DNA of 64,000 bases from Bacillota bacterium (GTDB taxonomy: Bacteria > Bacillota > Negativicutes > Sporomusales > CTSoil-080), in contig JAGGAC010000026.1 in assembly GCA_017889635.1 (NCBI GenBank), positions 1 to 64,000 of the forward strand, written 5' to 3'. This document shows positions 1,245-16,194 of the stretch, piece by piece. The position numbers and the translations under genes are program-made. Position 1 is the stretch's first letter; each line of letters starts with the position of its first letter. Below the pieces are notes generated by a model that saw nothing but the letters and a program-made list of their open reading frames with translations, was not told the DNA's origin and ran no database searches.

Positions 1245-1409
1245 TCAAGGAGTAATCACAAGCCGATATATAGGCAATACAAGACAGCAGAGTACAATGA
1301 GATAGACAATACTACCGCCCCAGCGATTATTGTTATTCATCAGCCAGCGGCCATAGGCGAAAGCGTGAATAGCAGCCAGTATACCGATAATTACATGAAT
1401 ATAGAGCAT
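1245..1409 (-). CDS. Small membrane protein of germination operon 1 (54 aa)
   Basis: This short gene begins 7 bases after the gerC stop. Its ribosome site (AAAGGAG) is formed by the last codons of gerC, which suggests coupled translation. The product starts MLYIHVIIGILAAIHAFAYG, has a short polar turn (RWLMNNNNRWGG) and then a second hydrophobic segment ending PIYRLVITP. It is therefore a two-helix hairpin with a short Asn-rich loop. I do not recognise the family. Its position as the last gene of a ger operon suggests an accessory role with the receptor in the inner spore membrane (inference). Germination operon 2 also carries a small two-helix protein. Confidence 0.72.
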   Translation of the reverse strand: MLYIHVIIGILAAIHAFAYGRWLMNNNNRWGGSIVYLIVLCCLVLPIYRLVITP

Positions 1410-1416
1410 TAAGCAA

Positions 1417-2664
1417 TCACTCCTTTCTGATCGGCGTGGTTTTTCGCATAAGGCCGTCTCGCCGCAACTTGGTTTGAACGTCTAAATGGATTACAGCCTC
1501 TGGATATTTGCTATCCCAATGATAATTTTCAAGTTCCTGAACCGTGTTAAATTTCGGACGGATATAATAACCGAAGTTAACTACATCAGTCCCCAAATCC
1601 TGAGTACGCTTCAGCATACTAGTGATTTGTTCGAAAATAGTATTGGAAATCTGCTGTTCTAATAAAACCTTATAATCGCCGGCCTCATAATTGGTACCGC
1701 TTGATACACCAAGGATATCTCCTTCTAAATAGACACTAATTGTGATTGCAGGAATAGTCGATGAGATATCCACGTTAATATTGGGTTTGCGGCCAAGATG
1801 AATATTTATATCAACCTGTTTAGACGGTACAAGTGGATCTTCTAACGACATAAAGCCACGCTCTAAATCTCCCAGCAGTATGGACAGAGCCCTAGTTTCC
1901 TTATTATTAAGAAACCCGACCAGTTTATCGCCCTTAAAAACTGCTGTTCCACACATTTCAAGCGGATTACCGCTTTGTCGCGGAATTTGCTTTGCGAGAT
2001 ATCCTTCGCTCCTATCGTTGCCTACCGCCTCGTTGTTAGCCCGATCTTCACCGTCTAGAGGATTAAGCCCCAAAAGAACTGCATATGGGGCCCCGCTTTC
2101 GTTCTTAAGCCGCTTATAAAATTGATATATATCGGCCCGCAAAAAATAGGAGGATTCAAAATACGATTGAAGCATGCTTTCGACCCACCGTGAAGTCAGA
2201 ACATCGAGATCAGGACGGTTTTTCTCTAATACTTCTTTGGCTGATCCCCGCACTATGGCGAGAAATACCGTTCCCCGATATTCCCGGTGACGCATAAACA
2301 GTCCAAAAAGGTCACCCAGTCCTTTGCGGGCCAGTTCCTCGCTGATAACAAAAATCTTAAGGTGAGAGATTCTTGGTTCTCGGGAAATAATTGATTTTAA
2401 TATATTGCGTCCCTCGGTTAAAGACGGTGCGGTTAAGTTAATAAGTATTGAAGATTTTTGTGATTGACTCTGGCTATCTTTGCCTCCGGCCAAAGAATGG
2501 GGATCTGCAATTCGATAGGTTATAGAAAGCTGGTTGTTCGGAGCTGCATCTATCCCCACTGATAAAATGTAAGCAACTTCATCGGTTTCCTTGGCACCGT
2601 TACAGCCGGTGGTGATTAACGCCCAAACTGTAAATAACAGTAATGTTATTGGTCGTAGGTACAT
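1417..2664 (-). CDS. gerC: Spore germination receptor C subunit, Ger(x)C family lipoprotein
   Basis: The 415-residue product begins with a lipoprotein signal; the lipobox is around LITTGC, with the modified Cys near residue 21. It continues as a Ger(x)C protein (DEVAYILSVGIDAAP is the typical family start). C subunits are anchored on the outer face of the inner spore membrane and are needed for receptor assembly. The start overlaps the end of the B gene by 19 bases, in the order A-B-C. Length is normal and no lesion is seen. Confidence 0.93.
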   Translation of the reverse strand: MYLRPITLLLFTVWALITTGCNGAKETDEVAYILSVGIDAAPNNQLSITYRIADPHSLAGGKDSQSQSQKSSILINLTAPSLTEGRNILKSIISREPRISHLKIFVISEELARKGLGDLFGLFMRHREYRGTVFLAIVRGSAKEVLEKNRPDLDVLTSRWVESMLQSYFESSYFLRADIYQFYKRLKNESGAPYAVLLGLNPLDGEDRANNEAVGNDRSEGYLAKQIPRQSGNPLEMCGTAVFKGDKLVGFLNNKETRALSILLGDLERGFMSLEDPLVPSKQVDINIHLGRKPNINVDISSTIPAITISVYLEGDILGVSSGTNYEAGDYKVLLEQQISNTIFEQITSMLKRTQDLGTDVVNFGYYIRPKFNTVQELENYHWDSKYPEAVIHLDVQTKLRRDGLMRKTTPIRKE

Positions 2665-3749
2665 GCCTTTTTTCGCCTATCCTTTATTATTGCAGCAATA
2701 AACAATATTATTGGAAAAATTACCGCCCCCAGAAATCCCGACAAATATATTTTAGACGCTAGTTTAATGAGCGCTGTCAAATCTGGAGGAAGAAGGGAAA
2801 ACTCTACTATAATGAAAGTAGCCGCTGGAATTAGCGGACGGATGGTGGAGAAATTAGCTAATCTTGATAATAGAAATATACCGGCGAACAGACAGGCCGT
2901 AATGCTTAATATCCCGACAATTACCCATATAACGATAAACAGCGATTCAATATGCTGAACATATCGGTTTAGATAAGCTACGCGGGCTATTTCATATAAT
3001 GGTAGTATCTTTTCTGTTCCTACCTTCAAGCCGAATACCATAATAAATACAACAAATATAAACGAATGTAATATCGAAGCGCCGCCAACTCCAAACACGG
3101 CGGCGGCTTTTAGCGTCCGTGCCGTTTGAAATGAGGGCGCGAGAACCGCAAGAATAATAATACCGACGTTCATGCCTGATAAGCCAACGCTATTTTCCGC
3201 TACCTGGTTTAAACCGTAACCTTGCCAGGGAAATAGATAGTTAACCTCCCACAACGAATAGGACGTAAATAACAGGATAAGAATTAAGCTAACGATAAAC
3301 GGCAATGCCAAATAGATTACTCGGGCAATTGTCTCAATCCCGGTATAAACAATTACTGCCGCTCCTAGACCATACCAAAGAATAGCGGTATCAAGATCAA
3401 TATAGGGTAAAGCGATTAACAGCGTATTTTCGGAATATTCCCTAGTCAAAGAAAAAGCCTGAAAAAAAAATGCAAAAATATAATAAACGCCAATCACTCT
3501 TGCCGCCACTTTGCCAAAAAGTTGTTCGGTTGTCGAAACTAAATCTCCGGGGAACCGGTTAAATACGTGGGCCAGTAAAAATAGCGAACTGATAATTATC
3601 GTTCCAGATATAAAGGGCACAGCCCAAGCCAAAGAACCCATTTTTTCTAAAATAAAAGACGGAGAACTCATCAATACTGAGTTAATTGTCATGATAACAG
3701 CTAAACCGATTCCTTCGGCCGTCCCCATTCGCCCTGGTTGATATTTCAT
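2646..3749 (-). CDS. gerB: Spore germination receptor B subunit (GerAB/spore permease family)
   Basis: A 367-residue integral membrane protein with about ten hydrophobic segments, a member of the GerAB family within the APC transporter superfamily. B subunits carry the germinant-binding pocket; in the best-studied receptor this binds L-alanine. The N-terminus has the family-like run EGIGLAVIMTINSVLMSS. Its ATG overlaps the gerA stop (ATGA), so translation is coupled. Length is normal. The germinant cannot be predicted from sequence. Confidence 0.93.
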   Translation of the reverse strand: MKYQPGRMGTAEGIGLAVIMTINSVLMSSPSFILEKMGSLAWAVPFISGTIIISSLFLLAHVFNRFPGDLVSTTEQLFGKVAARVIGVYYIFAFFFQAFSLTREYSENTLLIALPYIDLDTAILWYGLGAAVIVYTGIETIARVIYLALPFIVSLILILLFTSYSLWEVNYLFPWQGYGLNQVAENSVGLSGMNVGIIILAVLAPSFQTARTLKAAAVFGVGGASILHSFIFVVFIMVFGLKVGTEKILPLYEIARVAYLNRYVQHIESLFIVIWVIVGILSITACLFAGIFLLSRLANFSTIRPLIPAATFIIVEFSLLPPDLTALIKLASKIYLSGFLGAVIFPIILFIAAIIKDRRKKACTYDQ

Positions 3750-5620
3750 GGTTTATCCGACTTCCCTTGGTTGATTTTTTTCCATGTACGACTGATATTC
3801 GGCTGGCGTCGTTGGTCTTTAACATTTAAGGCATCAGGACGGGTATCTTGCTGAAATATCGGGCCGCGCAAAACAACATCATAACCGGCTATTGTCTTTG
3901 GCACCACTGGAGTCATATAAGGAACACCAAAAGATTTCATTTGGCAAAACAACACGGCAATCCACAAGAAGGCGGTTGCTAATCCAACAAGCCCGAAAGT
4001 AGCTGCAAAAGCTAATAGTATAAACCGGAGCAACCGAATGGCTGATGCCATTCGATAGTCGGGAATACAAAAAGAGGCCAACCCTGTACTAGCAACGATG
4101 ATAACAATAATGGGACTAACGATATTGGCATAGACCGCAGCCTGACCTAGAATCAGCGCACCGACAATGCCAATAGATGACCCTAGAAAACCTGGAACTC
4201 GTATGCCTGCTTCGCGAATAAGTTCAAATGAAAATTCCATCAGTACAATTTCAAACCAAGCCGGAAAAGTCACGTTTTCTCTTGAACCGGCAATGGCCAG
4301 CAAAAGTTCGGTAGGTAAAGCATCTTGATGAAAATAAGAAATAGCAATATATATAGATGGCAGAATTATTGAGACAAATGCTCCTAATAACCGGAGTATT
4401 CTCATAAAGTTGACAACAGTTGGTTTATGGCTAAAATCCTCCGCGGAATGGAAAAAGGAAAAAAAACTAACTGGAACGATATGGACAAATGGATTACCTT
4501 CCAGCAATATTGCAATTCGCCCTTCCACCAGATGTCCTGCTACCCGGTCCGGACGTTCCGTAGATAATGATTGGGGAAATGGGATGGATGGATGGTCTTC
4601 GATAAACTGAATAAGTTCCCCGGTATCGCCCAAATAGTCTGTTGCTATTCCTTGAATCCGGCGACGGACTTCGTCTACCAGTGTCGTATTGGCAATAGAA
4701 TCGATATACATAAGCGCGCAGTTAATCTGGCTGCGAGTTCCGACCTTAATGGTTTCGATGATAAGATCACTAGTACGTAACATCGAACGCACCAGTCCGG
4801 TATTTATTCGAAAATTTTCACTAAAAGCAGCCTGAGACCCTTGGACTGACTGTTCAATTTGCGACCGCTCCACTCCCCGGTGTTCCCAAGCGCCGGTACC
4901 AACAATAATCGCTTCATCAATACCGTCGAAGATAATGGCGGTAGATCCGCTGTTAACAGCCGTCTCTATGCTAGCAAAAGTATCACTACGCTTAATTTGA
5001 TTACTGGGCAAACATTCCCTAACGATTTGTTCAGTAAAGTTGCCCTCATAAAGTTCACGCGAATAATTAAACAGCATTAAGGGTTGAAGCACCGAGTTAT
5101 CTAAAAGTTTGCTATCAACCATCCCTTCGATAAACACCGCGAAAGCCTTAACGCGAGGATTTCCGGCAATACTAAAGTCACGAAGCATTATATCGTTATT
5201 GCGGGGCAGCTGGTAAATAGTCTCTACCGTCCGCCTATTTTCCTCGATGCTGGTCGATAAACGCTGGACTTTTGGTGCAGTAATACTTTGGTCATAACGT
5301 AAAAGAACCGGAGTTAATTGACTAAGCTGTTTGTCAAGAGCAGTAATTTCCAGTTTGATTTCGGCAGCTTCTTTGTCCCAGGTTTTCGAGCGTAACACGG
5401 TAGCTAGCTTGTCTATGAAGCCTTCAAGCCTGTGGGCATACCGCAGTAAGGACGAAAAAGCTTCTAAGGCCTTTTCCTTGTCCGGCTGTTGATTAGCAAC
5501 TTTTGGGCTATCATAGGGGCGGTGTTCATCCAGGACAAAAGGAGGAGGAACAGACGGCGGCTGATAACCAAGTATATTTTTAACCGAGCGATATAGCATA
5601 AAAAAAATGTTATCAACCAT
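3746..5620 (-). CDS. gerA: Spore germination receptor A subunit (GerAA family)
   Basis: A 624-residue GerA-family protein. It has a long soluble N-terminal half, then a membrane half with several helices from about residue 400 (for example ILPSIYIAISYFH) and a short basic tail. Family signatures include NTERPD-like STERPDRVAGHLVEGRIAILLEGNPFV and PYMTPVVP near the end. A subunits form the oligomeric core of the germinant receptor in the inner spore membrane. The protein is about 100 residues longer than many homologues, owing to an extended N-terminus with PPSVPPPFVLDEHRP. A GAGGGT ribosome site lies before the ATG. It is the first gene of the A-B-C-small operon. Confidence 0.94.
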   Translation of the reverse strand: MVDNIFFMLYRSVKNILGYQPPSVPPPFVLDEHRPYDSPKVANQQPDKEKALEAFSSLLRYAHRLEGFIDKLATVLRSKTWDKEAAEIKLEITALDKQLSQLTPVLLRYDQSITAPKVQRLSTSIEENRRTVETIYQLPRNNDIMLRDFSIAGNPRVKAFAVFIEGMVDSKLLDNSVLQPLMLFNYSRELYEGNFTEQIVRECLPSNQIKRSDTFASIETAVNSGSTAIIFDGIDEAIIVGTGAWEHRGVERSQIEQSVQGSQAAFSENFRINTGLVRSMLRTSDLIIETIKVGTRSQINCALMYIDSIANTTLVDEVRRRIQGIATDYLGDTGELIQFIEDHPSIPFPQSLSTERPDRVAGHLVEGRIAILLEGNPFVHIVPVSFFSFFHSAEDFSHKPTVVNFMRILRLLGAFVSIILPSIYIAISYFHQDALPTELLLAIAGSRENVTFPAWFEIVLMEFSFELIREAGIRVPGFLGSSIGIVGALILGQAAVYANIVSPIIVIIVASTGLASFCIPDYRMASAIRLLRFILLAFAATFGLVGLATAFLWIAVLFCQMKSFGVPYMTPVVPKTIAGYDVVLRGPIFQQDTRPDALNVKDQRRQPNISRTWKKINQGKSDKP

Positions 5621-13328: not shown

Positions 13329-14522
13329 CTACCTCTTTATTCCCTCTAAAATTGAATTTGCTTTTAGACTTGTCCCTGTTACTCTCACCTTAACCTTGAT
13401 ATTCACATGCAGGCTTGGAAAAATCTCATCCCAGTTATCTCGTAAAGATTCCCAGACTCGATAATTAGTTCTATGAATAACATCGCCAAAGCCAAATATG
13501 TCACTGTTATATTGTTTTTGAGCTGTAAAAATTGCTCCCGCCAAAATATTTTCAATTTCTTTTTCCTCTTCAGCTTCGATCATTCGAATATTTTCTTCTT
13601 TCAGTAAATCAATATCGGTTGAAATGCCGTTAATAGTACCTTCTATTTCCATTTTTATATTTATCTCCGGCTGCTCTTCTGCCTCAGCGGCTGTCAAGAA
13701 TACTTTGGTGCTTAAAATTTTCATTTCGACCATTCCGCCTTGCGGCAAGGTAATTACGCTGAGAAAATTCTTTCCCATGCCAGTTATATAATTGTATCCT
13801 TTACTATCTCTTTCATTTAGCCAACCAACAAGACGGTCTTTCTTAAATACCCCCAGCGGCACAATTTTAACTGTAGCAGGCATAACAACTTTTTTCAAAT
13901 TGTCGGTCTTATCGCTACTATCAGTATTACCTGAAATCTCGACCCCCGCAACCACCGGAGCTTTACCTTCAGTAACCAACATGCTTATTAATTTATCAAT
14001 GGTGACCACTGTAGTTGCCCCCCAAAATTCCTTGGCTAACAGCACTGAGTTAAACAGCGACTCGGCGGGAATAACTTCGGCCGGTGTCAGAACAGAAATA
14101 ACCTCCTTAACAGAAGTATTCTTAGCCACAAACAGGACAAAGTCGGCTCTAATTTCAAAACGTCTTGTAATGAAATCTAAAATTGGCGCGAGGCCTTCCC
14201 TGGCCAGTTTTTCACCAAAAACCAGAACCTGCAGATGGTTGTAAACCAATTTTCGTGGACACTCAGTATACACCTTTCTGTAAGCTTCAAAAACAGTTGA
14301 ACCGGTTGCAGCATAAGTTATTACCGGCGAACCAGAACCTTTATTTTTGCCGGCAATTTGTCCCGGGTTTAAGACTTGGAGCGAAACAATATAGCAGGTA
14401 GCATCTTTGTCAATCCCCAACGCGGATACTATGGCGCACTCGTCTAATTCCCTAGCGTCCCAACAACCGGTTGTAGCTATACTGATAATGATTAATAGGC
14501 TAATTAAGAACTTACGGTTCAT
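13329..14522 (-). CDS. gerC: Spore germination receptor C subunit, Ger(x)C family lipoprotein
   Basis: A 397-residue Ger(x)C protein with a lipoprotein signal (IATTGC, Cys near residue 20) followed by the family start WDARELDECAIVSALGIDKD. It should sit on the outer surface of the inner spore membrane. The ATG overlaps the stop of gerA, with GGAGGAGG upstream. The order in this operon is A-C-small-B, as in the gerK type, unlike the A-B-C order of operon 1. Length and motifs are normal. Confidence 0.92.
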   Translation of the reverse strand: MNRKFLISLLIIISIATTGCWDARELDECAIVSALGIDKDATCYIVSLQVLNPGQIAGKNKGSGSPVITYAATGSTVFEAYRKVYTECPRKLVYNHLQVLVFGEKLAREGLAPILDFITRRFEIRADFVLFVAKNTSVKEVISVLTPAEVIPAESLFNSVLLAKEFWGATTVVTIDKLISMLVTEGKAPVVAGVEISGNTDSSDKTDNLKKVVMPATVKIVPLGVFKKDRLVGWLNERDSKGYNYITGMGKNFLSVITLPQGGMVEMKILSTKVFLTAAEAEEQPEINIKMEIEGTINGISTDIDLLKEENIRMIEAEEEKEIENILAGAIFTAQKQYNSDIFGFGDVIHRTNYRVWESLRDNWDEIFPSLHVNIKVKVRVTGTSLKANSILEGIKR

Positions 14523-15958
14523 TCCGCCTCCTCCCGGTTAAGCGGTAATCTTAAAATAGCGTCGCGCTGAGTTTTGGTAACACGCGGCGATAATGGTTCC
14601 ATATAGGGAACACCCAACGAACGTAAACTGCACAGGTGAAACAGCATACCCATCAAGCCAATAAAAATACCGAAGAGACCAAAACTTGCTGCCAGCACCA
14701 TAAATACAAACCGCAGAATTCGAACCGCAAACGACATATTATAGTGCGGCAAAATGAAGCTCGACATAGCAGTTAACCCAACAACAATCAGCATTCCCTC
14801 AGACACAATGCCGGCTTGTACGGCAGCCTGTCCCATTACCAAGCCCCCAACCATCGATATTGCCGAGCCAATAGCTTTAGGCATTCTGATACTTGCTTCC
14901 CGGAATATCTCAAAGATTGCTTCCAATAATAAAGCTTCAATAAAGGTAGGAAATGGAGTGCCCTCCGCCTGGGCAGCTATATTTATTAAAAGTACAGTAG
15001 GAATCATTTCATTATGAAAGGTCGTAAGGGCAATATAGAGCGCCGGCACAAATAGCGTTAGCAGGAAGGCCGTATAACGCAGCACTCTAATTAATGAGCT
15101 TATAATATAATTATTATAGTAATCCTCGCTTGCCTGAAAAAACTGCACAAAGACCGCCGGAACAATGAGTACAAACGGTGTCCCATCCACTAAAATAGCA
15201 ATTCTTCCGTTCAATAGTTCCGCCGCAACTGTGTCCGGCCGCTCGGTATTTAATACTGTCGGAAAAATAGAAAAAGCGCGGTCTTGAATCAACTCTTCAA
15301 TATTACCGCTTTCCAAAATGCCATCAATAGCGATTCTTTCCAGCCGTAAATTTACCTTTTTAACCAAACTGCCATCACAAATTCCCTTAACATACACGAC
15401 AGCTACCGAAGTCTTGGTAACTCTACCGATAACTTTATTTTCAATCTGCAGTCTGCTGTCTTTTATTATTTTTCGAATAAGAGTCTTGTTGGTCGCTAGT
15501 TTTTCAACAAAGCCCTCTTGAGGGCCGCGCAAAACTCCCTGACTGCTTGGCGAACTGATACTCCGACCCTCGCTGCCACCTGATGACAGTGCTAGACTTT
15601 TGGATAAACCATCAAGCATTATAATGGTGTCACCGGACAAAAGCTGCTGGCATAACTTATCAAAGTCTGTTACTTCGGTAAAATTACTTCCTGACAGGTG
15701 AAGATTTTGTATATACTCAAAGACCTCCTGGTTGGCTAACAATTTATTCGACGCATCATATTGTTCCAGATCTTCTGTCAAGTCATTAATCATTTGTTGG
15801 ATATAGTTTTTATCCGCTAAGCCTTGTATATAAGCGACTGCCATCGATATACTTCGATTCTTGCCACAAATAAACGACCTGATAACCCAATCACTATTCT
15901 TGTCAGCTATTTGCTTTACTTGCTCGATATTCGCAATAAGTTTTATATGTAAATCCAT
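14519..15958 (-). CDS. gerA: Spore germination receptor A subunit (GerAA family)
   Basis: A 479-residue GerA protein of standard length. It has a soluble N-terminal half and then about five to six membrane segments from about residue 270. Signatures include NTERPDTVAAELLNGRIAI, GTPFVLIVPAVFVQFFQ and GVPYMEPLSPR. The ATG at 15958 is preferred over the GTG at 15973, because that GTG is part of the ribosome site GTGAGG. It is the first gene of operon 2. The A subunit alone is intact, but the receptor needs the B gene, which is frameshifted. Confidence 0.92.
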   Translation of the reverse strand: MDLHIKLIANIEQVKQIADKNSDWVIRSFICGKNRSISMAVAYIQGLADKNYIQQMINDLTEDLEQYDASNKLLANQEVFEYIQNLHLSGSNFTEVTDFDKLCQQLLSGDTIIMLDGLSKSLALSSGGSEGRSISSPSSQGVLRGPQEGFVEKLATNKTLIRKIIKDSRLQIENKVIGRVTKTSVAVVYVKGICDGSLVKKVNLRLERIAIDGILESGNIEELIQDRAFSIFPTVLNTERPDTVAAELLNGRIAILVDGTPFVLIVPAVFVQFFQASEDYYNNYIISSLIRVLRYTAFLLTLFVPALYIALTTFHNEMIPTVLLINIAAQAEGTPFPTFIEALLLEAIFEIFREASIRMPKAIGSAISMVGGLVMGQAAVQAGIVSEGMLIVVGLTAMSSFILPHYNMSFAVRILRFVFMVLAASFGLFGIFIGLMGMLFHLCSLRSLGVPYMEPLSPRVTKTQRDAILRLPLNREEAE

Positions 15959-16194
15959 TATTACCAACCTCACTGGAGTCGACAGTATTCCGCGTTTACT
16001 TGACTTTATCTGCTACTTTGACTTCTCGCTTTCACAGCCTAGCCTAAAAAGCTTTGTTAGTCTACAATAAATTATATTAATCCTAACTTTCTCAATCCCC
16101 TGTGTTTTAAACTAGCCATAACTTCCCACGCTATGAAATAGTTGTCTTGATTAGTTTTTCCTTGGTTTGCAAATTGTATACTATTTCCATATGA

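Follow-up and report, generated by a model that had tools for sequence, protein, structure and literature searches.

Germinant receptors are modelled as channels made of GerA, GerB and GerC. In the stretch of DNA analysed here (the window, 64,000 nucleotides at its full length), a gerA-gerB-gerC operon is followed by a further open reading frame of 54 codons, and this locus raises a double question: is the frame a gene, and does its product belong to the receptor? A preliminary description had placed the frame at 1245-1409, with its ATG 7 bases after gerC and an AAAGGAG motif supplied by gerC codons, but had left out the strand. The arrangement is as described, on the minus strand: the frame runs from ATG (1407-1409) to TGA (1245-1247), a gap of 7 nt (TTGCTTA) separates it from the gerC stop (1417-1419), and the AAAGGAG motif lies within the last gerC codons (AGA AAG GAG TGA; Table 1). 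The 54-residue product, MLYIHVIIGILAAIHAFAYGRWLMNNNNRWGGSIVYLIVLCCLVLPIYRLVITP, is called D below.

Table 1. Coordinates of ger operon 1 in the window, with the predicted parts of the D protein
Feature	Position	Strand	Basis
gerA, 624 aa, GerA subunit	3746..5620	-	PF03323 E 3.1e-163
gerB, 367 aa, transporter-like subunit	2646..3749	-	PF03845 E 3.1e-24; TIGR00912 below its cut-off
gerC, 415 aa, lipoprotein subunit of receptor	1417..2664	-	TIGR02887 E 1.6e-62, PF25198, PF05504
AAAGGAG ribosome-binding site, inside last gerC codons, 10 nt before D ATG	1420..1426	-	sequence
D gene, two-helix membrane protein, fourth gene of ger operon	1245..1409	-	sequence, relatives, AlphaFold2
D predicted helix 1, residues 2-25	1335..1406	-	AlphaFold2; conserved [HY]15, [ST]18, [YF]19, W22, L23
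D predicted turn, residues 26-28, NNN	1326..1334	-	AlphaFold2; conserved N28
D predicted helix 2, residues 29-52	1254..1325	-	AlphaFold2; conserved G31, [AG]32, P46

The genes gerA, gerB and gerC, in this order, are consecutive and overlapping or abutting on one strand, the arrangement by which a GerABC operon is recognized; operon 1 of the window is an ordinary gerA-gerB-gerC operon plus a fourth gene, D. No sigma-G-like site above chance precedes gerA (0.8 of shuffles were as good), and a scan of 1060-1420 for sigma-70-type promoters and terminators returned a weak terminator-like site within the D gene, of which no use was made. Further downstream on this strand, 176 nt after D, a CheW plus receiver-domain protein (CheV-like) is encoded (169-1068). 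A second ger operon of the window (13329-15973, minus strand) comprises gerC (13329-14522) and, just upstream, a 484-aa frame (14519-15973) that we take as gerA; no D follows its gerC. The source genome as a whole holds twelve GerC genes, only two of which have D directly downstream, and on contig C20 one of its operons carries two tandem gerC genes with D after the second. LpxC is also present in this genome, consistent with a host that has two membranes, such as the Negativicutes assumed in the preliminary description.

That D is a gene follows from its relatives. A match at E<=1 is found in 50 of 60 related genomes, and the nearest relative, whose sequence also stands on the record of a soil MAG (Bacillota isolate CTSoil_081), is 72% identical across all 54 residues. 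Between this relative and the window copy, 20.0 of 38.2 synonymous sites differ (pS 0.524), as do 19.0 of 123.8 non-synonymous sites (pN 0.153); across fifteen D pairs in another family, pN/pS ranges from 0.15 to 0.37. None of the 85 distinct copies collected in this work contains an in-frame stop, whereas the other two forward frames are interrupted by stops in 83 and 52 of them. D encodes a protein maintained by purifying selection, and its frame, whose conservation among relatives the preliminary description had named as the check to be made, is kept far beyond close relatives. A chance open reading frame, which a short and hydrophobic product might bring to mind, is refuted by these relatives, the intact frame and pN/pS, together with the gene order and GerC co-occurrence described below, and we give it practically no weight. 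Very improbable, too, is a leader or spacer that acts through coupling, mRNA stability or termination and is translated to a peptide of no consequence: D is indeed the last frame of the operon and lies near the gerC stop, but amino-acid conservation, with pN well below pS, largely refutes this explanation, and in three family lineages D persists away from the operon.

The relatives form a single family. We aligned 33 relatives from the class (alignment A1; near-copies and the loci L003, L019, L028 and L052 were left out) and 25 of 29 loci from the phylum (A3; without L082, L098, L099 and L101), and the two sets match one another with an hhalign probability of 99.3% (E 7e-21); a third alignment of 31 rows (A6) was drawn from the sources of both. 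Over 68 aligned rows the conserved columns are W22 (64/68), N28 and G31 (62/68 each), L23 and P46 (56/68 each), H/Y15, S/T18, Y/F19 and A/G32; the window copy carries an alanine at the otherwise conserved position 18. N28 and G31 usually stand in the pattern G-N-x-x-G. No family of Pfam or NCBIfam covers these proteins, and the matches are scattered and weak: no Pfam family occurs in more than 4 of the 33 class members (best E 0.0022), and the best match among phylum members is DUF3953 (E 5.7e-4, 2/25). The only library match of the window copy, YqhR (PF11085; E 0.38, 11.1 bits against a cut-off of 27), is a weak stretch of membrane helix that is not common to the family, and was rejected as a name. 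Also tried as a lead was CLC_0170, which we took to be a family name; no such NCBIfam match was obtained, no mention of it was found in the openly accessible literature, and it was likewise set aside. In that literature, outside which most subscription papers fall, D-subunits appear only for Bacillus, and we found nothing on the present family. A scan of a viral collection with one D relative gave no match.

The predicted shape of D is simple. AlphaFold2, run on the single sequence, returns a helical hairpin with a mean pLDDT of 90.5 (helices 2-25 and 29-52), which agrees with the two-helix hairpin of the preliminary description; the Asn-rich turn proposed there needs qualification, as the NNNN run is particular to the window copy and the conserved elements are N28 and G31. 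The hairpin is generic in shape and no solved structure matches it: searches of the PDB gave no relative by sequence (best E 0.082, to light-harvesting helices) and none by fold at E<=0.001. On the model, the conserved W, N and G lie on the turn side of the hairpin. Lysine and arginine average 2.6 at the turn, 0.07 at the N-terminus and 0.97 at the C-terminus of the 68 aligned rows. By the positive-inside rule, the positively charged side of a membrane protein is its inner side, so that the turn is predicted to face the spore core.

Gene order ties D to the receptor. Among the 85 distinct copies, 74 lie directly 3' of a gerC on the same strand (47 from the class, 27 from the phylum) and 11 do not. 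In these 74, the distance from the gerC stop to the first D residue is 0 to 181 nt, and in the class sample it is often within a few nucleotides. Co-occurrence is equally tight. Of the 200 genomes in the class sample, 55 contain the GerC family (PF05504) and 52 contain D at E<=1e-3, all of them within the 55, whereas D is found in 0 of the 145 GerC-negative genomes. Among these 52, the matches in G019, G032 and G050 are weak. A further weak match, in G043, was validated by its position as a divergent D located 38 nt after gerC and raises the count to 53 of 55 GerC-positive genomes; G028 and G030 have GerC and no D match. In the phylum sample of 398 genomes, D was detected in 54 with the A1 profile and then in 64 with the A6 profile, all among the 332 GerC-positive genomes.

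Genomes with the D family hold up to 12 GerC genes. We built a GerC tree from 126 proteins, 72 with and 54 without D downstream; the 72 all cluster in a single group of 82 members (SH-aLRT 93), and the D label requires 6 changes, whereas the 500 shuffles averaged 41 and none was as low. This sampling was not blind: D-bearing GerC proteins entered through D, while D-less ones came from the listed best PF05504 matches and were widened later. In the wider trees the group comprises 83 of 133 GerC (support 99), 84 of 154 (support 100) and, in the widest class tree, 87 of 179 (support 100, FastTree). L082 was left out of the GerC trees because its gerC is split, and three very long branches (L128, L129 and L130) were dropped from the 133-, 154- and 179-GerC trees. 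Of the 87 lineage members in the widest tree, 74 have D just downstream, five are tandem gerC copies in D-bearing operons (L165, L124, L042_1660, L104_145 and L276), seven have no D in their operon and an orphan D elsewhere in the same genome, and a single one (L259, G038:C36) has neither, in a genome with D in another operon. Outside the lineage, D follows 0 of 92 GerC genes in the same tree; the GerC of the second window operon belongs there. As a control, we turned to 63 genomes scored as D-negative and to their GerC closest to that of the window: 30 were retrieved, 29 of which fall outside the lineage, and the sole one inside (L210, G043) proved to be the one with the divergent D downstream. 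The D family is widespread across the phylum and genomically bound to one GerC lineage.

The interpretation that best accommodates these observations, to which we assign a probability of roughly 0.7, is that D is a real two-helix membrane protein and the fourth (D) subunit of one lineage of the GerABC nutrient receptor. One ancient receptor type probably has an unnamed fourth part. The accessory germination subunit of the preliminary description is strongly supported by the gene order (74/85), the co-occurrence with GerC and the restriction to one lineage, from which we infer membership in the complex and an effect on germination; what goes beyond that description is how widely the family occurs and that it is tied to a single receptor lineage. 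Further support comes from the seven lineage operons whose genomes keep D elsewhere, one of which, in G470, was located by a forecast made from its orphan D. Against this reading count the generic shape, the lineage operon (L259) with neither D nor an orphan, two orphan-bearing genomes with no lineage GerC detected, the weak sequence pairing described below and the lack of a sigma-G-like site above chance before gerA. D would be made in the forespore together with GerA, GerB and GerC and, on the model above, would insert into the inner membrane of the spore as a hairpin whose short turn points to the core. It could then make contact with the membrane part of GerA or GerB, the conserved W-L....N..G-A face forming the packing surface. 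Its most likely role would be to assist in the assembly of this receptor type or to determine how readily it opens. If this is true, structural models and reconstitutions of this receptor lineage that omit D are incomplete, and a germination gene without a name is present in most genomes of lineage members. Within genomes that carry as many as a dozen receptors, the family also serves as a clean sequence marker of one class.

The nearest functional precedent, by analogy, is GerUD of Bacillus megaterium. PMC4661057 describes GerUD, GerKD of B. megaterium and GerKD of B. subtilis as small proteins with short ends and two membrane helices, whose genes lie within or next to a GerABC operon; B. megaterium without GerUD shows an apparent Km for glucose that rises from 1.7 to 7.5 mM, that is, a lower apparent affinity for the germinant. 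According to the same source, the GerUD loop, of about 20 residues, maps to the outer face, and the protein tolerates truncation, helix swaps and even reversal of its sequence. We located GerUD in NC_014023, by length and place, as a 76-aa gene divergent from gerUA. The present family resembles GerUD and GerKD in that the D gene lies in or adjacent to a receptor operon (in the window and, after gerC, in the 74 linked copies) and in its two membrane helices joined by a loop with short ends, which AlphaFold2 predicts for D. It differs from GerUD in several respects. There is no sequence similarity to GerUD: hhalign gives 0.6% against GerUD alone, and 0.4% (A1) and 0.3% (A3) against GerUD with four relatives. 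D has 54 residues and a turn of about 3, GerUD 76 and its far longer loop; the charge pattern of D predicts a core-facing turn, whereas the GerUD loop was mapped outward; operon-linked D always lies on the gerC side, whereas GerUD is divergent from gerUA. With respect to GerABC operons in general, that of the window adds a fourth gene and belongs to a distinct GerC lineage. From gene order and predicted shape, our best reading is that D would work like the Bacillus D-subunits; it is not filed in the GerUD family because sequence similarity to GerUD is absent and the predicted topology is opposite.

Another explanation is that D acts during sporulation as a membrane chaperone for the insertion or solubility of GerA, GerB and GerC and is no part of the finished receptor. 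A chaperone role was suggested for D-subunits by the authors of PMC4661057, since a single helix or the reversed GerUD sequence sufficed. The strict columns of the D family (W22, N28, G31 and P46) suggest specific contacts, whereas GerUD tolerates changes of sequence, and we consider the chaperone unlikely for the present family. A bolder version of the fourth-subunit reading is advanced here tentatively, as somewhat less likely than not: Bacillota outside the Bacillus models may possess an ancient four-part GerABCD receptor class, in which D would be a fixed structural subunit, its hairpin inverted relative to GerUD, needed for assembly or gating and serving as the sequence marker of the class.

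The copies that lie away from ger genes bear on another alternative, in which D would be a spore-membrane protein in its own right, for example a factor for membrane packing or dormancy, sharing only a transcript with the receptor and making no contact with it. Six genomes have a lineage operon without D and an orphan D elsewhere (G004, G011, G014, G016 and G018 in family f3, G005 in family f4). The f3 orphan precedes a class III aminotransferase gene by about 90 nt, and the f4 orphan adjoins malic enzyme and LysR genes. In family f140, one orphan (L096) is found beside a PCMT-like methyltransferase and another (L107) between unnamed membrane proteins; only G470, the genome of L096, has a D-lineage GerC among the f140 orphan genomes. 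D-less operons and orphans together imply that in three or more family lineages D moved out of its operon without being lost, and its presence away from ger genes in f3, f4 and f140 means that it can work from another locus. From the six f3 and f4 genomes we expected an orphan D to be the sign of a D-less lineage operon. Of five further genomes with orphans, this forecast was borne out in G470, one of whose four GerC falls in the lineage, but not in G424 or G020 (87% complete), which keep an orphan D with no lineage GerC detected. In G046 and G017 the operon is complete and a second, unlinked D-like piece is present, lacking a start codon in one case and short in the other; these pieces may be decayed. 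Both the unlinked loci and the two genomes in which the forecast failed favour a separate protein. Against it stand the restriction of D to one GerC lineage where up to 12 GerC genes are available, and its absence from the GerC-negative class genomes; a general spore factor would not be expected to track one receptor type across the phylum. We regard a separate protein as distinctly unlikely, and prefer the fourth subunit.

Sequence pairing between orphan D and D-less GerC is weak. Per genome, the orphan D correlates at 0.17-0.54 with the D-less GerC and at -0.34 to 0.25 with the D-bearing GerC. In a swap test, 32 of 45 comparisons were concordant and 8 of 1024 swaps did as well, with only 14 of 24 concordant for orphan-versus-operon pairs. 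The Mantel correlation (r 0.71) is confounded by shared descent and for this reason was not used as proof of contact. The genomes in which D moved elsewhere and the one operon from which it was lost are natural experiments that make its function directly testable. Upstream of the f3 orphan genes (L010, L011, L013, L014, L021 and L038), about 45 nt before the ATG, a conserved block GAnTA-18 nt-AATACTA (CATACTA in L021) resembles a sporulation sigma site, with weak significance in single sequences.
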